Positions 2,401-11,665 of a stretch of 11,783 nt of DNA are shown here, piece after piece; positions within the stretch are counted from its first letter, which is position 1; each line of letters starts with the position of its first letter. A program made the translations under genes and the position numbers. The notes under the pieces are model-generated. The model was not told the DNA's origin and ran no database searches. It saw nothing but the letters and a program-made list of their open reading frames with translations. Source of the stretch: Geobacteraceae bacterium (GTDB lineage: Bacteria; Desulfobacterota; Desulfuromonadia; Desulfuromonadales; Geopsychrobacteraceae); the NCBI GenBank assembly GCA_027064785.1, contig JAMOPE010000243.1, positions 1 through 11,783 of the forward strand. Direction: 5' to 3'.

Positions 2401-3792
2401 ATGAGTGACACCAAAAAGACATCGATTAAACAGATTTTGCAGTCGCAGCAAGCCGAGCCGGAAATCTGTGTTAAAGGTTGGGTGCGTTCGATCCGTCGCG
2501 GCAAAGACGTTGCCTTTCTCACCATGAACGATGGTAGTTGCTTTGCTTCGGTACAAATTGTTTTGAGCCCGGACATTGATAATTACGATGCTGTCTCCCG
2601 TGTCGGAACCGGGGCGTGTCTTGTCGTTGTCGGGGCTCTGGTTGAATCCCCGGCAAAAGGTCAGGACTGGGAACTTCAGGCTCAGACTATTGAGATCATT
2701 GGTGCTGCAGATGAGAGTTATCCTTTACAGAAAAAGCGTCATACTCTCGAATATCTGCGGACTATTGCTCACCTGCGTCCCCGCTCCAATACATTTGGAG
2801 CTGTTTTCCGGATGCGTAGTGCCCTGTCGTTTGCGGTTCACCAGTTTTTTCAACAGCGTGGTTTTCTTTATGTTCAAACTCCGATTATTACTGCCAACGA
2901 TTGTGAGGGTGCGGGGGAACTTTTTCGGGTGACGACTCTTGATCCGCAAAATCCACCTCTTTTGGATGGAAAGGTCGACTGGAGCCGTGATTTCTTTGGC
3001 GAACAAACGGGGCTAACGGTGAGTGGACAGTTGCAGGGGGAATTATTTGCGACAGCTTTCTCCGATATCTACACTTTTGGACCGACTTTCCGTGCTGAAA
3101 ACTCCAATACCAGTCGTCATGCCGCTGAGTTCTGGATGATTGAACCCGAGATTGCATTTGCTGACCTACGTGATAACTGTCAATTGGGGGAGGATTTTCT
3201 CCGCTATCTGGTGACGTATGCCCTGGATCATTGTCACGAAGACCTCGACTTTTTCAATCAGCGGATTGAAAAGGGGCTGATTGAAAAACTTGAAACACTG
3301 GCAAAAGCTAACTTTACAACGGTGACTTATACCGAGGCCGTTGAACGACTGCAGAAATCGGGACAGAAATTTGAGTTCCCGGTTGAATGGGGACTCGATC
3401 TGCAATCGGAACATGAACGCTATCTGACCGAGAAAGTTTTTAACGGGCCGGTTTTTGTCACCGATTATCCGAAACAGATCAAAGCATTTTATATGCGGAT
3501 GAACGATGACGGGAAAACTGTTGCGGCGATGGATCTTCTCGTCCCAAGGGTCGGAGAAATTATCGGTGGCAGCCAGCGGGAAGAACGTCTCGATGTCCTG
3601 CAGGCACGGATGGCGGCCCAGGGGATTGCTCCTGACGACATGAGCTGGTATCTCGATATCCGTCGCTGGGGAAGTTGTCCGCATGCCGGATTTGGACTTG
3701 GTTTTGAGCGGTTAATTATGTACCTGACCGGGATGGAAAACATCCGCGACGTTATCCCGTTCCCGCGGACTCCTGGACATGCACGGTTCTAG
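2401..3792 (+). CDS. asnS: Asparaginyl-tRNA synthetase
   Basis: This class IIb cytoplasmic enzyme charges tRNA-Asn with asparagine using ATP. At 463 residues it is a normal length. An N-terminal OB-fold anticodon-binding domain (about 20-105; VKGWVRSIRRGKDVAFLTMNDG) precedes the catalytic core. Motif 2 is at 230-240 (FRAENSNTSRH, Arg231 contacting ATP) followed by EFWMIEPE. Motif 3 is GFGLGFER at 430-437 with the invariant Arg437. The C-terminus (DVIPFPRTPGHARF) matches the usual AsnRS ending, so the gene is complete. The start ATG 2401 is preceded by GAAAGG (2386-2391) at about 9 bases. The oddity is at the 3' end: the last Phe codon and TAG stop are the first unit of a heptamer array, and the next gene's ATG (3779) lies inside asnS, a 14-base overlap in another frame. 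No terminator is visible after asnS, so read-through into the sensor kinase gene is likely. Confidence 0.98.
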   Translation: MSDTKKTSIKQILQSQQAEPEICVKGWVRSIRRGKDVAFLTMNDGSCFASVQIVLSPDIDNYDAVSRVGTGACLVVVGALVESPAKGQDWELQAQTIEIIGAADESYPLQKKRHTLEYLRTIAHLRPRSNTFGAVFRMRSALSFAVHQFFQQRGFLYVQTPIITANDCEGAGELFRVTTLDPQNPPLLDGKVDWSRDFFGEQTGLTVSGQLQGELFATAFSDIYTFGPTFRAENSNTSRHAAEFWMIEPEIAFADLRDNCQLGEDFLRYLVTYALDHCHEDLDFFNQRIEKGLIEKLETLAKANFTTVTYTEAVERLQKSGQKFEFPVEWGLDLQSEHERYLTEKVFNGPVFVTDYPKQIKAFYMRMNDDGKTVAAMDLLVPRVGEIIGGSQREERLDVLQARMAAQGIAPDDMSWYLDIRRWGSCPHAGFGLGFERLIMYLTGMENIRDVIPFPRTPGHARF

Positions 3793-5650
3793 GTTCAAGG
3801 TTCTAGGTTCTAGGTTCAAGGTTCTAGGTTCTAGGTTCAAGGTTCTAGGTTCTAGGTTCAAGGTTCAAGGTTCTAGGTTCAAGGTTCTAGGTTCTAGGTT
3901 CAAGGTTCTGTGTTTCTGGTCTTGCCTGTCCTTGCTCCTTGTCCCTTGTGCCTTGGTCCTTCTTCTTTACATTGCACCAGCTTTTGCCGAAGAACCGGTA
4001 CGTCAGGATCTGCCGGTACGGATCGGTGGGGACTATAATTATCCCCCCTACGAGTACCTCGACTCGGATGGGTTGCCGACGGGATATAATGTCGAGCTGA
4101 CTCAGGCGATTGCCCGGGTGATGGGGATGGAGATTAATATCCAGCTTGGCTCGTGGGGAAGTATGCGACAGGCGCTGGATAAGGGTGATGTTGATATCCT
4201 GATGGGGATGGCGCACACCAAAGAGCGTCTTGACGAGGTCGACTTCTCAATTCCTCACGCTAAAGTTCATCAATCTATCTGGATTCGCAATGATAACCGG
4301 ACAATTCGTTCGGTAAAAGACCTTGAAGGGAAAGAGGTCATTGTGATGAAGGGAAGTGTGATGCACGACTACATGATCGAGAACGGCATTGTTGCTGATC
4401 TGTTTATGGTGCAGTCGCTTGCTGATGCACTCAATTTGCTTGCATCGGGACATCACGATTGTGCTTTGGTGGCAAAATTGCCCGGTGAATATCTCCTCAG
4501 CAGTTTGCATCTGAGCAATATTCATCCGATCGCCCGACCTCTGGTTGCCCAAAATTATGGTTTTGCTGTTAAAAAGGGAAATCTTGAGTTGCTGGCTCCC
4601 TTCAATGAAGGTTTGGCACTGCTTAAAAAGACCGGTGACTATCGCCGGATTCGTGAGAAATGGCTGGGGGTTTTACAGCCGGAGCCTATTTCGTGGCACA
4701 ATATCATCCGTTATGGCGCACTGGTCATTGGGCCGCTGCTTCTGGTGCTGATTGCTTTTGCACTGTGGTCGCGGACGTTACGCCGACAGGTGGCTCTGCG
4801 AACTAAGGAGTTGGAGCGGGAAATTGCTGAGCGGATGAAATCGGCAGAAGAATTACAGATTCGCCAGAAACAGCTTCTCCATGCCGACAAAATGACCTCA
4901 CTGGGGGTGTTGGTCGCGGGGGTTGCTCATGAAATTAACAATCCTAATGGCTTAATTCAGTTGAGTTTGCCTCAGTTAAGTAAGACATATCAAAGCATTG
5001 AGCCTATTTTGGATAAATATTACGAAGAGCAGGGAAATTTCAAGCTTGGCTGGTTCCCCTATTCACGAATGCGTCGCGAAATTCCAAAGATGCTTGAGGA
5101 GATGCTGGAAAGCTCCAACCGGATTAAGCGAATTGTCGAGGACCTTAAAGATTTTGCCCGGCGAAATGATTCGGGGCTGGACGATGCGGTTGATCTGAAT
5201 GATGTTGTCTCTTCGGCGTTGCGCTTGGTTGATAACACTCTCCGTAATGCGACCCATAATTTCAGTATCGATTATGCTGCCGATCTCCCGTTGTTCCGGG
5301 GAAATGGGCATCGGATCGAACAGGTTGTCGTTAATCTGATTTTAAATGCCTGTCAGGCGTTGACATCGGTTGAGCAATCGATACAGTTGCGCACTTATGC
5401 ACTTGCTGATGAAAAAATGGTTGTCCTTGAAGTGACGGATGAAGGCTGTGGCCTGGATGAAGAGACCCTGAGCCGCATTACCGATCCGTTTTTTACGACA
5501 AAACGTGAATCTGGCGGAACCGGTCTGGGACTTTCCGTTTCGGATGGCATCGTCAAAGACCACCATGGACGCCTAGAATTCAGCTCACAGCCGGAAGAGG
5601 GGATGGTTGTGACGCTTTTGTTGCCAATTAAAGAGGAAGAACATGATTGA
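3779..5650 (+). CDS. Sensor histidine kinase with periplasmic SBP_bac_3 ligand-binding domain
   Basis: A 623-residue membrane kinase. Residues 3-44 are six copies of GSRFKVL (one ends in Q), encoded by the heptamer array, giving a strongly cationic N-terminal region. A hydrophobic signal segment (about 49-67) follows, with an AFA cleavage site after residue 70. The SBP_bac_3 domain (about 81-296) keeps Arg150 in HTKER and Asp227 in HHDCAL, the positions that in amino-acid-binding proteins hold the ligand's carboxylate and amine, so an amino-acid-like ligand is plausible. A transmembrane helix (309-330), a coiled-coil linker, HisKA (His384 in HEINNPN) and HATPase_c (Asn523, Asp554, GGTGLGL 579-585) complete it. 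There is no receiver domain. The gene overlaps the next by 8 bases, so the downstream regulator is its obvious partner. ATG 3779 has no convincing ribosome-binding site. TTG 3932 and TTG 3953 are in-frame alternatives, but they would leave a signal peptide without its positive charges. Confidence 0.92.
   Translation: MHGSRFKVLGSRFKVLGSRFKVLGSRFKVQGSRFKVLGSRFKVLCFWSCLSLLLVPCALVLLLYIAPAFAEEPVRQDLPVRIGGDYNYPPYEYLDSDGLPTGYNVELTQAIARVMGMEINIQLGSWGSMRQALDKGDVDILMGMAHTKERLDEVDFSIPHAKVHQSIWIRNDNRTIRSVKDLEGKEVIVMKGSVMHDYMIENGIVADLFMVQSLADALNLLASGHHDCALVAKLPGEYLLSSLHLSNIHPIARPLVAQNYGFAVKKGNLELLAPFNEGLALLKKTGDYRRIREKWLGVLQPEPISWHNIIRYGALVIGPLLLVLIAFALWSRTLRRQVALRTKELEREIAERMKSAEELQIRQKQLLHADKMTSLGVLVAGVAHEINNPNGLIQLSLPQLSKTYQSIEPILDKYYEEQGNFKLGWFPYSRMRREIPKMLEEMLESSNRIKRIVEDLKDFARRNDSGLDDAVDLNDVVSSALRLVDNTLRNATHNFSIDYAADLPLFRGNGHRIEQVVVNLILNACQALTSVEQSIQLRTYALADEKMVVLEVTDEGCGLDEETLSRITDPFFTTKRESGGTGLGLSVSDGIVKDHHGRLEFSSQPEEGMVVTLLLPIKEEEHD
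3787..3905 (+). repeat. Perfect heptamer tandem array, 17 x TTC(T/A)AGG
   Basis: Seventeen uninterrupted 7-base units differ only at base 4. Writing T for TTCTAGG and A for TTCAAGG, the order is TATTATTATTAATATTA. Unit 1 supplies the final Phe codon and TAG stop of asnS. In the sensor kinase frame, three units (21 bases) encode GSRFKVL. The units that would place TAG in that frame are numbers 2, 5, 8, 11, 14 and 17, and all six are the A form, so the frame stays open. A degenerate TTCTGTG (3906-3912) follows the array. It resembles in style the short tandem heptamer repeats known from cyanobacteria. No spacers or longer repeats are present, so it is not a CRISPR. Confidence 0.97.
3930..3964 (+). 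repeat. Degenerate heptamer run, CCTTGNN, opposite orientation to the main array
   Basis: CCTT recurs at 3930, 3937, 3944, 3951 and 3958, exactly seven bases apart. The first four units are CCTTGCT, CCTTGTC, CCTTGTG and CCTTGGT, and the fifth is CCTTCTT. Since CCTTGAA is the reverse complement of TTCAAGG, this looks like a decayed, inverted relative of the array 25 bases upstream. It codes for part of the signal-peptide core (about residues 51-62) of the sensor kinase. The spacing is seen directly; common origin is inference. Confidence 0.7.
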
Positions 5651-7058
5651 GACAAAACCGTATCCCTCTTTCGGGGTATTGTTAGTTGATGATGAGCTAC
5701 CATGGCTGCGTAGTTTAAGTTTGGCTCTGGAAGGGCCGGGGGGGATTACAAATCTGCATCAGTGTGCGGACAGTCGCGATGTTATGTCGACCCTGGAGTC
5801 CAATGAAATCGGTTTAGTTCTTCTCGATTTGACGATGCCCCACCTTTCCGGGGATGAATTGCTTGAACAGATTGTTGAGGACTTTCCACACGTCAGGGTG
5901 ATCATCCTCAGCGGCATGAATCAGTTGGAAACGGCAGTGAATTGTATGCGTGCCGGTGCGTTCGATTACTACGTCAAGACGATTGATGAAGAACGGCTGG
6001 TTGAGGGAGTTCTGCGTGCGATCCGGATGGTTGAACTGGAGTATGAAAACCGTGCGATCAGGCGGCGGTTTTTCCGGGAAAAGCTTGATACTCCTGAAGT
6101 TTTCTCCTCCATTGTGACGAATAATGCAGCGATGCGTGCCTGTTTTCAATATCTGGAGGCGGTCGCACCCAGCCATCAGCCAATTTTGATTACCGGTGAA
6201 AGCGGCGTTGGTAAAGAGCTGATTGCCGAAGCTGTCCATACGCTCAGCGGTAATCGCGGTGAACTGGTGTCGGTCAACGTTGCCGGGCTTGATGATAATG
6301 TTTTCGCCGATACTTTGTTCGGTCATGTCCGTGGTGCTTTTACCGGTGCCGATAATATTCGCAAGGGGATGATAGAAAAGGCTGCCGGCGGGACACTCTT
6401 CCTTGATGAAATCGGAGATCTGAACGCAGCCTCTCAGGTGAAATTACTCAGGCTGTTGCAAAGCGGGGAATATTATCCGCTGGGAAGTGATCAGCCTAAG
6501 CAGATGACCGCCCGTGTTGTGGTTGCAACCCATGCCGACCTCGATGCCAAGATGGCACTGGGTGAATTTCGTCGCGATTTATATTATCGTTTGTATTCAC
6601 ACCATGTCCACGTGCCGCCGCTGCGCGAACGTAAGGATGATCTGGTGCTTCTTCTCGATCATTTTTTAACCGAGGCGGCTAAGAACCTGGGAAAAAAGAA
6701 GCCGACTCCGCCAAAAGAACTGGCAGTCTTGCTCTCGACCTATGATTTTCCCGGGAACATTCGTGAATTGGAAGCGATGGTTTATGATGCGGTCAGTCAA
6801 CACCAGCAGAAGACGCTGTCGATGCAAAGTTTTCTTGCCCGTATCGGCTCTCAGGCGGAACATCCTACCGTTGATTACTCCCCGGAGGTGGGAAATCCCT
6901 TTGCTGTTCTGACCCCTTTGCCGACACTGCAGCAGGCTGGACAATTGCTGGTTGAAGAGGCGATGCAGCGTTCTGATGGGAATCAGAGTATTGCCGCGCG
7001 TCTGTTGGGGATTTCTCAGCCAGCACTGAGTAAGAGACTGAAAGAGAAACGCCGCTAA
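5643..7058 (+). CDS. NtrC-family sigma-54-dependent response regulator
   Basis: A 471-residue activator. The receiver domain (about 10-125) has acidic pocket Asp16/Asp17, phosphoacceptor Asp62 (LLDLTMP), Ser90 and Lys112. The AAA+ domain (about 155-395) has Walker A GESGVGKE (185-192), the sigma-54-contacting loop GAFTGA (231-236), Walker B (GGTLFLDEIGDL) and an arginine-rich sensor region (PPLRERKDD). The C-terminus (about 430-470, ending in NQSIAARLLGISQPALSKRL) is a Fis-type helix-turn-helix. It should, when phosphorylated, bind upstream sites and remodel sigma-54 RNA polymerase using ATP. Its ATG lies inside the last codons of the kinase gene (8-base overlap, translational coupling), making the pair a two-component system. 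The nearest downstream target is the TRAP transporter, which has a matching sigma-54 promoter at 7265-7280. No strong terminator directly follows; a bulged hairpin lies at 7165-7189. Confidence 0.96.
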   Translation: MIETKPYPSFGVLLVDDELPWLRSLSLALEGPGGITNLHQCADSRDVMSTLESNEIGLVLLDLTMPHLSGDELLEQIVEDFPHVRVIILSGMNQLETAVNCMRAGAFDYYVKTIDEERLVEGVLRAIRMVELEYENRAIRRRFFREKLDTPEVFSSIVTNNAAMRACFQYLEAVAPSHQPILITGESGVGKELIAEAVHTLSGNRGELVSVNVAGLDDNVFADTLFGHVRGAFTGADNIRKGMIEKAAGGTLFLDEIGDLNAASQVKLLRLLQSGEYYPLGSDQPKQMTARVVVATHADLDAKMALGEFRRDLYYRLYSHHVHVPPLRERKDDLVLLLDHFLTEAAKNLGKKKPTPPKELAVLLSTYDFPGNIRELEAMVYDAVSQHQQKTLSMQSFLARIGSQAEHPTVDYSPEVGNPFAVLTPLPTLQQAGQLLVEEAMQRSDGNQSIAARLLGISQPALSKRLKEKRR

Positions 7059-7374: not shown

Positions 7375-8349
7375 ATGAAGAAAATGTTTATGTATCTTTT
7401 GGCTTTTGCTGTTGCAGCCAGCTTTGTTCCTGTTAGCCCGGCTAACGCAATGGAGCAACAGTTTGTTACAATCGGTACCGGTGGTGTTACCGGCGTTTAC
7501 TACCCAACTGGTGGTGCTATTTGTCGTCTGGTTAACAAAACCAGAAAAGAGCACGGTATCCGTTGCTCGGTCGAAAGTACCGGTGGTTCTGTTTACAACC
7601 TGAACACCATTCGTGCTGGCGAACTAGACATGGGTGTTGCTCAGTCTGACTGGCAGTACCATGCATATCACGGCACCAGCAAATTCAAAGACCAAGGTCC
7701 TAACAAGAAACTGCGCGCAGTTTTCTCTGTTCACCCTGAGCCCTTCACTGTTGTTGCCCGTAAAGATGCCAACATCAGAAACTTTGATGACCTCAAAGGT
7801 AAGCGCGTTAACATCGGTAACCCGGGTTCCGGTCAACGTGGCACCATGGAAGTTGTTATGGCAGCCAAAGGCTGGACTAACAAAGATTTCAAACTGGCTT
7901 CCGAGCTGAAGTCCTCTGAGCAGTCTAAAGCTCTGTGCGACAACAAAATTGATGCCATCGTTTTCACCGTTGGTCACCCAAGTGGTTCGATCAAAGAAGC
8001 TTCGACTTCCTGTGACACAACTTTGGTTAACGTCACCGGTCCTGCAATTGACAAGCTTGTCAAAGACAATGACTACTATCGTTATGCAACTATCCCTGGT
8101 GGTATGTATCGTGGCACCCCTGAAGACACCAAGACCTTCGGTGTTGGCGCAACCTTCGTAACGTCTTCTGACGTTCCCGAAGATGTTATCTACAATGTTG
8201 TTAAAGCTGTTTTTGAAAACTTTGACGATTTCAAAAAGCTTCACCCTGCATTCTCTGTCCTGAAAAAAGAAGAAATGATCAAGGACGGCCTGTCTGCACC
8301 TCTTCATCGTGGTGCTGCTAAGTACTACAAAGAAGCTGGTTTGATGTAA
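7375..8349 (+). CDS. TAXI-family TRAP transporter periplasmic binding protein
   Basis: This 324-residue secreted protein captures substrate in the periplasm and delivers it to the TRAP permease. Residues 1-25 are a clear signal peptide (MKK, hydrophobic core, cleavage after ANA). The mature protein starts with the family's [24 protein letters not shown], followed by the conserved [25 protein letters not shown] pattern and [16 protein letters not shown]. Cys50/Cys64 and Cys188/Cys213 could form two disulfides (inference). The substrate cannot be read from sequence; characterised TAXI proteins bind glutamate/glutamine-like or other organic acids. The start is firm: GAGGAGGAG (7360-7368) lies six bases before ATG. 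Codon choice is visibly more biased than in the neighbours (mostly AAC for Asn, GGT for Gly, GTT for Val), as expected for an abundant protein. It is controlled by the sigma-54 promoter upstream and followed by a strong terminator before the permease gene. Confidence 0.96.
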
Positions 8350-8494: not shown

Positions 8495-11089
8495 ATGAGC
8501 GAAGTAACAACTCAGATTAAAACCGAAGAAGAACTCCAAGAGATGATTGCCGAAACGGAATCGGGAGCTCGAAATCCAACCGGGTCTTTTCCTAAAAAAG
8601 TTCTGTTTGGGGTGCCGTTGATCTGGACGATTTTTCAACTTTGGTATGCCTCACCCCTGCCGTTCATTTTTAATTTCTTTGTCATAAATGATACTGAGGC
8701 GCGAGCAATTCACCTTGCTTTTGCCGTGTTCCTCGCATTTACAGCCTTTCCGACTTTTAAGAAATCTCCCAAGAACTATATTCCTATTCAGGATTGGGCG
8801 ATGGGGCTGGCCGGTGCCTTCTGTGCCGGTTATCTCTACCTATTTTATAATGAGCTGTCTAGTCGTCCCGGTTTACCGACTCAGATGGACCTGATTGTTT
8901 CGGTTTGTGGCTTGATTCTGCTTCTTGAAGCAACACGACGGGCTCTTGGTCCTCCACTGATGATTGTAGCGCTGATTTTTATCTCCTACACCTTTGGTGG
9001 TCAGTACATGCCCGATGTTATTGCTCACCAAAGTGCCAGTCTGTCAAAAGGTATGTCTCACTACTGGCTGGGAACAGAAGGGGTTTTTGGTGTTGCGCTG
9101 GGTGTTTCCACCGGGATGGTCTTTATGTTCGTCCTTTTTGGGGCCCTTCTTGAGGCCGGTGGCGCCGGTAACTATTTTATCCGTACTGCTTTTGCTGCCC
9201 TTGGGCACCTGAAAGGCGGTCCGGCGAAAGCTGCTGTCGTCTCTTCAGGTTTAACTGGACTTGTTTCTGGTTCTTCTATCGCAAATGTTGTGACAACCGG
9301 AACCTTCACGATCCCGCTAATGAAGAAAGTTGGATTTAAGGCCGAAAAGGCGGGTGCTATCGAAGTTGCCTGCTCGACGAATGGTCAGTTGATGCCCCCG
9401 GTTATGGGCGCTGCTGCCTTCCTGATGGTTGAATATGTCGGAATTACCTACATCGAAGTCATAAAGCACGCATTCCTCCCGGCGATTATCTCTTACGTGG
9501 CGCTGGTTTACATCGTCCACCTTGAAGCTTGTAAAATGGGGCTAAAGGGGATGGAAAAGACTATTACAAAAACAGCGGCACAACGTTTGATGTCTTTTGT
9601 TCTATCGTTCCTAACTATGATTATTCTCGCTGGCGGAACATATTATGGTTTAGGCTGGATCAAGGGTGTTGCCGGTGACGCTACGATTTACGTTGTATCG
9701 GTTCTATTACTCATTGCGTATCTGTTTTTGCTTTGGGTTGCCTGCCGGGTTCCTGAATTGGAGCAAACAACTGAGATTAATGAGCTTCCTCATCTTGGGA
9801 AAACAGCTCAGGCGGGTTACTATTTTCTCCTGCCGGTTGTTGTGCTGATGTGGTGCTTGACTGTTGAACGACTGTCTCCGGCATTGTCAGCTTTTTGGGC
9901 AACAGTATTAATGATTTTTATCCTCCTGACGCAGCGACCGTTGAAAGGCATTTTCCGTAAGGGACAAGGGAAAGAATTTTCCTTTAAATCTGGAATCATG
10001 GATCTGATTGACGGCAGTGTTGCTGGCGCCCGGAATATGATCGGTATTGGTGTTGCGACGTCAGCTGCCGGTATTATTGTTGGTACTGTTACTTTGACCG
10101 GTATCGGGCTGGTTATGACCGAATTTGTCGAGTTTATTTCCGGTGGTAGTTTGATGCTGATCCTGCTGTTTACTGCAATCATCAGTCTAATTCTGGGAAT
10201 GGGCCTACCGACAACGGCTAACTATATTGTTGTGTCGACTCTGATGGCTCCGGTTATCGTTAACCTTGCTGCACAGAATGGTCTGATCGTTCCTCTGATT
10301 GCTGCTCACCTGTTTGTCTTTTATTTCGGGATTCTTGCGGATGATACCCCGCCAGTGGGGTTAGCTGCCTTTGCAGCTGCCGGTATATCGGGGGGTGATC
10401 CGATTAAGACGGGTATACAGGGTTTTATCTACGATATCCGAACAGCGATATTACCCTTCATGTTTATCTTTAATACGAAGTTGCTGATGATCGGAGTCGA
10501 TCATTGGTATCAGCTTGTTATTGTTATTGTTTCTGCTGTTCTTGCAATGCTTTCTTTTGCCGCCGGAACGCAAGGGTATTTTCTGGTTAAATGCCGGGTG
10601 TGGGAGACGGTGATGTTGCTATTGATCGCTCTGATTTTGTTTCGCCCGGGTATCGTCTGGGATAAAATTTTCCCCCCATTGCTTGAAGAACCTGCTACAC
10701 AAATTGTTGAGTATGTCGGTGACATGGACCCGGGTTCATCTCTGCGTATGACGGTTGCCGGCGAAAAGATGAATGGTAAAAAGTTCAAAAAAACACTGAT
10801 GCTGACAATTGGTGATGAGGCTACCGGTGCAGAGAGACTGGGTGCTGTTGGTATTGAAACCCGTGAGGAAGGTGGAAAGATCTATATCGATAATGTTGTT
10901 TTTGGCAGTGTCGCCGAAAAATCGGGCATCGATTTTGATCAGGAAATTCTTCACCTCCAGGTGCCAAGCCACCGCTTGCCACCAGAGCTGATGTATTTTC
11001 CCGCTGTTGGACTCTATATTCTGTTATATGTCATTCAATCTCGCAGGAGAAAGAAAGAGGAAGAGGCAGAACTGGAAGCTGCTGCTTGA
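8495..11089 (+). CDS. Fused TRAP transporter permease (DctQ-DctM type) with C-terminal PDZ-like extension
   Basis: An 864-residue inner-membrane protein that uses an ion gradient to import the substrate delivered by the TAXI protein. After an acidic cytoplasmic tail (1-32), about four or five helices (about 36-165) correspond to the small DctQ-like subunit. The DctM-like part follows with signature stretches GLVSGSSIANVVTTGTFTIP (from about 255), GMGLPTTANYIVVST (from about 568) and ADDTPPVGLAAFAAAGI (from about 615). After residue about 715 comes an extension typical of DUF3394-bearing TAXI permeases, including a PDZ-like stretch (about 778-830, IDNVVFGSVAEKSGIDFDQEIL). A last helix (about 833-849) and an RRRKK tail follow. 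Positive-inside logic places the extension in the periplasm. The start ATG is preceded by GAAGGA (8481-8486) at 8 bases. Expression probably depends on read-through of the terminator at 8365-8399, since no clear promoter is visible in 8400-8494. Confidence 0.95.
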   Translation: MSEVTTQIKTEEELQEMIAETESGARNPTGSFPKKVLFGVPLIWTIFQLWYASPLPFIFNFFVINDTEARAIHLAFAVFLAFTAFPTFKKSPKNYIPIQDWAMGLAGAFCAGYLYLFYNELSSRPGLPTQMDLIVSVCGLILLLEATRRALGPPLMIVALIFISYTFGGQYMPDVIAHQSASLSKGMSHYWLGTEGVFGVALGVSTGMVFMFVLFGALLEAGGAGNYFIRTAFAALGHLKGGPAKAAVVSSGLTGLVSGSSIANVVTTGTFTIPLMKKVGFKAEKAGAIEVACSTNGQLMPPVMGAAAFLMVEYVGITYIEVIKHAFLPAIISYVALVYIVHLEACKMGLKGMEKTITKTAAQRLMSFVLSFLTMIILAGGTYYGLGWIKGVAGDATIYVVSVLLLIAYLFLLWVACRVPELEQTTEINELPHLGKTAQAGYYFLLPVVVLMWCLTVERLSPALSAFWATVLMIFILLTQRPLKGIFRKGQGKEFSFKSGIMDLIDGSVAGARNMIGIGVATSAAGIIVGTVTLTGIGLVMTEFVEFISGGSLMLILLFTAIISLILGMGLPTTANYIVVSTLMAPVIVNLAAQNGLIVPLIAAHLFVFYFGILADDTPPVGLAAFAAAGISGGDPIKTGIQGFIYDIRTAILPFMFIFNTKLLMIGVDHWYQLVIVIVSAVLAMLSFAAGTQGYFLVKCRVWETVMLLLIALILFRPGIVWDKIFPPLLEEPATQIVEYVGDMDPGSSLRMTVAGEKMNGKKFKKTLMLTIGDEATGAERLGAVGIETREEGGKIYIDNVVFGSVAEKSGIDFDQEILHLQVPSHRLPPELMYFPAVGLYILLYVIQSRRRKKEEEAELEAAA

Positions 11090-11170: not shown

Positions 11171-11665
11171 ATGGAAATGAAGATAAATAAAATTCTGGTT
11201 GCCAAAGATTTAAGCAAAGATTCTTCACGGGTGATCCGCTATGCATTGGAACTTGGCTGTAAGTTTCATGCACAGATTCATGTTTTGCATGTTATGCCGA
11301 CTGTTGATTCTTCGGTTCTTAACATGGTTGCGTTGACAATGGGACCAGACAATCTGGCAAAATTTAACGCCGTGAATGAATCAGAATTGTCCGAGAAGAC
11401 CAAAGAGCAGTTGCACGCCATCATTGCGCAGGAAACTGAACTGATGGAGGAGGAGACGATCCATCCACCTCAGGTTGAAGTTCATCATGGGGAACCTGTT
11501 CCAATGATTCTTGAGGTTGCTGATCGTCTTGATGTCGACATGATCGTTCTCGGCAGTCATAGTAAAGGAAAGCTCCATTACGCTTTTCTCGGGAGTGTTG
11601 CTGAAAAGATATTGCGCAAAACAAACCGGGTGGTGACAATCGTCCCTCCTCATGTAGGGCGCTAG
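11171..11665 (+). CDS. Universal stress protein (UspA family)
   Basis: A 164-residue soluble cytoplasmic protein with a single Usp fold: KINKILVAKDLSKDSSRVIRYALEL at the start (Asp13 at the nucleotide-binding position), IHVLHVMP, and the C-terminal DMIVLGSHSKG...LGSVAEKILRKTNRVVTIVP. The ATP-binding signature is normally G-x2-G-x9-G(S/T). Here the first Gly is 128 and the last pair Gly141-Ser142, but the middle Gly is Ser131, so nucleotide binding may be kept but altered. Usp proteins are often encoded with TRAP transporters; TeaD beside the ectoine transporter TeaABC of Halomonas is the known case and modulates uptake. A similar accessory role is inferred. ATG 11171 follows GAGGAAAG (11153-11160) at 10 bases; an ATG two codons later is also possible. 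The gene lies 81 bases after the permease with a hairpin but no terminator between, so it is probably co-transcribed. Confidence 0.94.
   Translation: MEMKINKILVAKDLSKDSSRVIRYALELGCKFHAQIHVLHVMPTVDSSVLNMVALTMGPDNLAKFNAVNESELSEKTKEQLHAIIAQETELMEEETIHPPQVEVHHGEPVPMILEVADRLDVDMIVLGSHSKGKLHYAFLGSVAEKILRKTNRVVTIVPPHVGR

Follow-up and report, generated by a model that had tools for sequence, protein, structure and literature searches.

In Rickettsia, palindromic elements are translated in frame inside genes. These elements are not known to have a heptamer structure. The repeat described here does consist of heptamers, and it sits at the start of a sensor histidine kinase gene in contig JAMOPE010000243.1, a stretch of 11,783 nucleotides that is called the window from here on. 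The kinase gene begins inside its upstream neighbour asnS, and the repeat lies at this junction. The reading preferred here, which is probable, is that one arm of a repeat element grew in a way that kept the reading frame, and that this element supplies the signal peptide of the kinase.

Several described systems resemble this junction. In Yersinia, the signal peptide predicted for YPO1552 is formed in part by the RU-2 palindromic repeat (PMC2759123, PMC2229807), which likewise makes RU-2 a repeat element fused into a predicted signal peptide. RU-2 is a 168-bp unit, whereas the element here is built from heptamers, its arms would code for different parts of the signal peptide, and its copy number varies in a frame-keeping way. 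The opa genes of Neisseria carry CTCTT pentamers in the leader (PMC3745409). This too is a short repeat, with a unit that is not a multiple of three, within the stretch that codes for a leader peptide. The opa repeats switch the frame, while the five alleles known here are all in frame.

Heptanucleotide repeats of Haemophilus influenzae (PMC2651432) are found in promoters or coding sequence, and like the repeats here they have a varying number of 7-base units. They are mostly upstream of the gene, however, and the description considered does not mention a complementary second arm. Other heptamers are intergenic: GGGAATC in Xanthomonas, with related repeats in Nostoc (PMC4692102), and TAACTGA in Beggiatoaceae (PMC4679880). 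According to the excerpts of these papers considered, they too form abundant, mainly intergenic arrays, and in Xanthomonas array length and sequence also vary between relatives. The units are different ones, though, and do not form an inverted element of AAGG and CCTT heptamers.

In the literature on heptanucleotide repeats, phase variation, repeats in signal peptides and repeats in Desulfuromusa or Geobacter, the element was not recognised among the matches listed, going by titles and the opening of abstracts. Repeat elements fused into signal peptides are a known kind; the details are new.

The junction offers a natural case in which a mostly intergenic hairpin repeat has seemingly been turned into most of a signal peptide, and relatives without the element at the same site allow comparison. 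It also allows a direct test of the reading frame as a filter on repeat growth: heptamer arrays elsewhere grow by single units, and the five junction arrays are all multiples of three. The case suggests that heptamer arrays by gene starts should not be written off as annotation errors.

The features at the junction are as follows.

2401-3792, + strand: asnS, asparaginyl-tRNA synthetase (open reading frame; PF00152, PF01336).
3779-5650, + strand: sensor histidine kinase with SBP_bac_3 and HATPase_c domains (PF00497 4.5e-33, PF02518 2.8e-22).
3779-3781, + strand: ATG start codon of the kinase, inside asnS.
3779-3988, + strand: proposed signal peptide, residues 1-70, ending in APAFA before EEPV (by inspection).
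3787-3905, + strand: 5' arm, 17 TTCWAGG heptamers coding for GSRFKVL/Q, the basic n-region of the proposed signal peptide.
3906-3912, + strand: unit 18, TTCTGTG, the degenerate final unit of the 5' arm.
3913-3928, + strand: spacer or loop of the element, TTTCTGGTCTTGCCTG, common to four relatives, with one base different in G010.
3929-3965, + strand: 3' arm, degenerate CCTTGNN heptamers coding for the proposed hydrophobic core SLLLVPCALVLL (Tandem Repeats Finder, TRF, period 7, score 39).

Below, T stands for TTCTAGG and A for TTCAAGG, and G000 is the genome that carries the window. Counted from 3787, the order of units 1-17 is T A T T A T T A T T A A T A T T A. Unit 1 opens with the final codon and the stop of asnS (TTC TAG, its first six bases); the tail of asnS is NIRDVIPFPRTPGHARF followed by that stop. 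In the reading frame that the ATG at 3779 opens, a TAG would be in register at units 2, 5, 8, 11, 14 and 17. All six are TTCAAGG, and ten of the eleven others are TTCTAGG, with unit 12 as the exception. An earlier note on this DNA had claimed exactly this arrangement, and direct reading bears it out. Given seven A units among 17, the chance of an A at all six in-register places is 11/19448, or 5.7e-4.

The order of the units also has a period of three. Units agree at lag 1 in 5/16 comparisons, at lag 2 in 5/15, and at lag 3 in 12/14 (permutation value 0.004 for lag 3). TRF gives period 21 a score of 243, versus 201 for period 7.

Translated, the array gives five copies of GSRFKVL and one of GSRFKVQ, where the Gln arises from unit 12. 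The earlier note was right that this stretch is free of stops, but it had counted six identical copies. It had also confined the array to 3787-3905; the heptamers are there, but the complementary degenerate arm at 3929-3965 is present as well. The asnS stop in unit 1, the signal peptide, the conserved start and the copies of the element at other places are also absent from that note. Its claim that the repeat is coding only if the variants alternate is not supported. A repeat of TTCAAGG only is stop-free in all three frames, and because 7 and 3 share no factor, every frame of a pure heptamer repeat gives the same seven residues. The relatives discussed below have no alternation. The T/A alternation matters only when T-forms are present; plain TTCAAGG codes without it. 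In G000, both non-kinase frames of the element contain stops.

The two genes overlap by 14 bases, counted from the A of the ATG up to the last base of the asnS stop. The first heptamer begins 8 bases past that A, which puts a unit that is not a multiple of three in coding sequence near the start, as in coding contingency loci that vary in phase. Fourteen genomes of the genus were searched. The kinase is present at E <= 1e-150 in 12, and one of these is without the 5' end, leaving 11 that show the junction. The overlapping ATG is at the same place in 11/11, which supports the claim that the array is inside an open kinase frame.

In 8 of the 11 genomes the frame that begins at this ATG runs open into the kinase; in 3 (L128, L131, L132) it is closed. 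In these three a different repeat closes the frame, and the kinase seems to use a later start (ATG, ATG, TTG). Right after the end of asnS, L128, L129, L131 and L132 (genomes G004, G005, G008 and G011) have a C-rich repeat of the AATCCCCCTC...GGGGGA type; in L129 this repeat is read through, in a frame that stays open from the overlap ATG. D. kysingii (L020; junction same as L133) has no repeat, and there the overlap ATG runs directly into a signal-like start. Outside the genus, an overlapping ATG in the kinase frame with a signal-like start is found in at least 8 asnS-linked loci (L022, L024-L030), among 17 listed of 80 loci.

The same element is present at the junction in 5 of the 11 genus genomes, with 18 units in G000 and 6 in each of G006, G009, G010 and G012, where the count is taken before a shared TTTCTGG. 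The kinase frame is kept in 5/5, with no off-frame allele among them. None of the four relatives has TTCTAGG at in-register unit 2 or 5 (7 of these units are TTCAAGG, 1 is TACAAGG). This agrees with the earlier note, but it is a weak test, because these arrays have no TTCTAGG past unit 1 (in G010 unit 1 is TTTTAGG).

The 3' arm is complementary to the 5' arm, and the arms pair in the predicted fold. It contains four CCTTG pentamers that are invariant in 5/5 genomes; 3 of their 8 loose bases vary. By inspection and a simple test of charge and hydropathy, the encoded peptide has the features of a Sec signal peptide, with a net charge of +12 before the core and a mean hydropathy of 2.55 in it. 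It appears that the 5' arm codes for the basic part of the kinase signal peptide and the 3' arm for its hydrophobic core. The end of the peptide (APAFA-EEP) is similar to that in relatives which lack the element, and the AxA-EEP cleavage region looks native rather than derived from the element.

The mechanism proposed here involves translation, export and selection, with a direction and order of steps that would be as follows. An inverted element, made of AAGG units, a loop and CCTT units, would have come to span the overlap between the asnS stop and the kinase start. Because the start codon of the kinase lies upstream, inside asnS, the element would be translated, its 5' arm turning into the n-region and its 3' arm into the core. 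Heptamers would be gained or lost, and changes other than multiples of three units would shift the kinase frame and disappear. Starting from about 6 units, the array of G000 would have reached 18, chiefly by steps of 21 bases. TTCTAGG would have begun as the heptamer holding the asnS stop codon and been carried along during growth. Because it was copied mainly in 21-base steps, its TAG would have stayed outside the kinase frame.

In searches across the order, which covered 136 genomes, TTCTAGG followed by two TTCWAGG occurs in 3, only at the junction, and in G006 and G009 only at unit 1. Unit 1 is the most likely source of the T-form, because outside G000 this pattern is found only there, holding the asnS stop.

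It may be, though this is rather doubtful, that a 21-base T-A-T unit was simply copied as a block, with the frame irrelevant, and open since 21 is a multiple of three. The TRF preference for period 21 fits this, and so does a rough simulation that starts with six units and counts only runs with 7-13 T-forms. Steps of three units without a stop filter give the pattern in 1757/4417 runs, mixed steps of 1-3 units in 34/4655, and single steps in 1/5119.

Arrays elsewhere do not behave this way. The control consists of 52 arrays of at least 5 units outside the junction. Fifteen are informative, meaning that two or more unit types each occur in two or more copies (10 arrays of 9+ units, 3 of 6-8, 2 of 5); the remaining 37 were left out as uninformative. 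Lag 3 is above lag 1 in 0 of the 13 informative arrays of at least 6 units, and variants mostly come in runs. For the ten arrays of 9+ units, agreement at lags 1, 2 and 3 is 99/122, 81/112 and 64/102. Orthologous elements in G006 and G009, beside two genes that we take from their translations to be argG and argH, form, among the pairs listed, two complete pairs that differ by one unit per arm, which also counts against block copying. A 21-base preference at the junction alone needs a reason, and the reading frame supplies one.

The earlier note had offered block duplication and frame selection as alternatives. Growth by 21 bases does fit best, but the two can act together and are not separated here. 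What the array pattern reveals is the step size; the reading frame is the inferred reason for three-unit steps.

A number of points weigh against frame-kept growth as the explanation. The expanded array is found in one genome only. The four arrays of 6 units were probably all inherited from a single state, so that the case for frame keeping in unit number depends on one net change, which has a 1 in 3 chance. In the simulation, three-unit steps plus a stop filter give the pattern in 2429/2465 runs, and as the filter adds little to three-unit steps, selection is not separated from block duplication. Steps of 21 bases alone cannot carry the T-form from unit 1 into the third register (units 3, 6, 9, 15); its presence there requires at least one further event. 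Both informative five-unit arrays alternate (lag 3 above lag 1 in 2/2), and one of the two, a TTTTAGG/TTCGAGG array (L164/L234, G000:C262), is in the window's own genome. Changes in the hydrophobic core mostly alter the amino acid, which protein constraint alone would not give. The element is also patchy on the kinase tree (15 rows), where 4 changes are needed and at least 3 are forced by supported branches.

A single origin of the element is not shown, given that the kinase tree requires several changes and the asnS tree (12 rows; L024 absent) is mostly unresolved. A single insertion with later loss or exchange may still be favoured by the loop and position that these genomes have in common.

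A second explanation, to be held only tentatively, is that the hairpin itself is selected. A stem in RNA or DNA would control how the kinase message is translated or how stable it is, and coding would be tolerated. The RNA fold z-score lies between -4.2 and -7.5 in the five genomes with the element (from a stretch of 220 bases in G000 and of 130 in the rest), versus 0.98 and -0.11 in two genomes without a repeat at the junction. Where the C-rich repeat occupies the junction, in G004, G005, G008 and G011, the z-scores are -3.25, -5.42, -1.51 and -1.41.

Conservation points in the same direction. Over 115 columns around the element there is 97% identity in four relatives, versus about 79-90% in the flanking 490 bases, among the pairs listed. 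In the 20 codons after the array (3914-3973), the four pairs with G000 have 0, 0, 0 and 2 synonymous changes, while 76 other windows of 20 codons hold 2-12. The same 20 codons have 3-4 amino-acid changes per pair, at the loose bases of the heptamers. This suggests that the constraint acts on the hairpin or the heptamer itself.

On the other hand, in G000 18 units oppose a short 3' arm, elements at other places differ more between relatives, and homogenisation could also reduce divergence. So could a short tract exchanged between lineages, an alternative that the patchy distribution on the kinase tree would fit. A selected hairpin is compatible with the signal-peptide reading.

An improbable alternative is a phase-variable switch, in which slippage by one or two heptamers toggles the kinase and the out-of-register TAG tightens the off state. 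The ingredients are there: a unit length of 7, which is not a multiple of three, an array placed after the start codon and ahead of the signal-peptide core, one-unit differences in the intergenic elements of relatives, and in G000 stops inside the element in both other frames. The kinase is nevertheless in the on frame in 5/5 element genomes, and the interrupted T/A order should reduce slippage. It would be equally surprising if one element did three jobs, with arms that code for the signal peptide, a hairpin that controls the downstream gene, and slippage that tunes or switches export.

It is very unlikely that the assembly has the order or number of units wrong. The source is a draft of 2.37 Mb in 468 contigs from a sediment bacterium, and contigs of relatives end within such arrays (L142, L145, L146, L148), with a run of N beside an array in L172. 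The whole 18-unit array is only about 126 bases, however, it sits inside an 11.8 kb contig between unique flanks, and misassembly is not expected to hold TAG out of frame. What the contig ends and N runs do mean is that draft genomes probably understate the number of elements.

Least probable is a downstream translation start with the array as untranslated spacer, even though the hydrophobic core has in-frame TTG codons and a later start seems used in L128, L131 and L132, since TTG initiation would leave no basic n-region, there is no ATG or GTG in frame between array and core, and the frame from the overlap ATG is open in all five element genomes.

Similar elements occur elsewhere in the genus, whose genomes are of the Desulfuromusa type, and in the order. 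A strict arm pattern matches in 8 of the 14 genus genomes, at 39 places among the matches listed, versus 1 match for a reversed control pattern. AAGG heptamers, a loop and CCTT heptamers can be read directly at such places, and the closely read cases are intergenic (judged by eye, at some of the loci). G000 has the element at three places (C243, C83, C262), of which C262 has a single arm. As in miniature inverted-repeat transposable elements (MITEs) or repetitive extragenic palindromic (REP) sequences, an inverted repeat is present at several, mainly intergenic, places per genome.

A query peptide of 45 residues from a relative, covering n-region and hydrophobic core, matches in 12 of the 136 genomes. 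Five of these match at the junction, and 9/136 match at other places, some via the first arm only. The best match away from the junction is G009:C162, with 65% over residues 2-35 (E 1.8e-8). Because this peptide finds matches away from the junction, both arms belong to one kind of repeat. Among the 42 off-junction matches listed, 21 have stops and 21 do not. Two are in long frames, of 409 and 517 amino acids (L207/L218 and L225), which look antisense by eye. There may be further coding cases of the element, beyond this kinase.

That such elements serve as portable signal peptides in general is unsupported. Only 42 of 201 frames are stop-free, below the 41.5% of the controls, partly because CCTTGAA contains TGA. 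Frames that are both signal-like and stop-free number 12/201 (6.0%), versus 1.7% of 4020 control frames. These are frames of 67 non-kinase elements, most of which are entered on both strands, so that they overlap and are not independent.

In the one-unit pairs above (L230, L162 and L166 of G006 and G009), a heptamer has been gained or lost in both arms jointly. In a third pair, L231/L141, one arm differs by several units, and at argH G009 and G011 have an equal unit number; other listed pairs are interrupted by contig ends. The argG site of G011 is without the element. At the kinase site, at L230 (argG side) and at L144, the first TAGG of the element coincides with the apparent TAG stop of the upstream gene, as if TAGG/CCTA were an insertion or growth point.

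The rest of the window contains the following genes.

37-1821: PAS histidine kinase (open reading frame list and profile search).
5643-7058, + strand: NtrC-type response regulator (PF00072, PF00158, PF02954), with a start that overlaps the end of the 3779-5650 kinase.
7375-8349: NMT1-like solute receptor (open reading frame list and profile search).
8495-11089: DctM-type permease (open reading frame list and profile search).
11171-11665: universal stress protein (open reading frame list and profile search).

There is no match in plasmid records, and none in Rfam at its gathering scores. HisKA in the 3779-5650 kinase scores 26.3, slightly under the cut-off of 26.9. The nearest named relatives of this kinase are from Desulfuromusa genomes, and from its position the regulator at 5643-7058 is likely the partner of the kinase.

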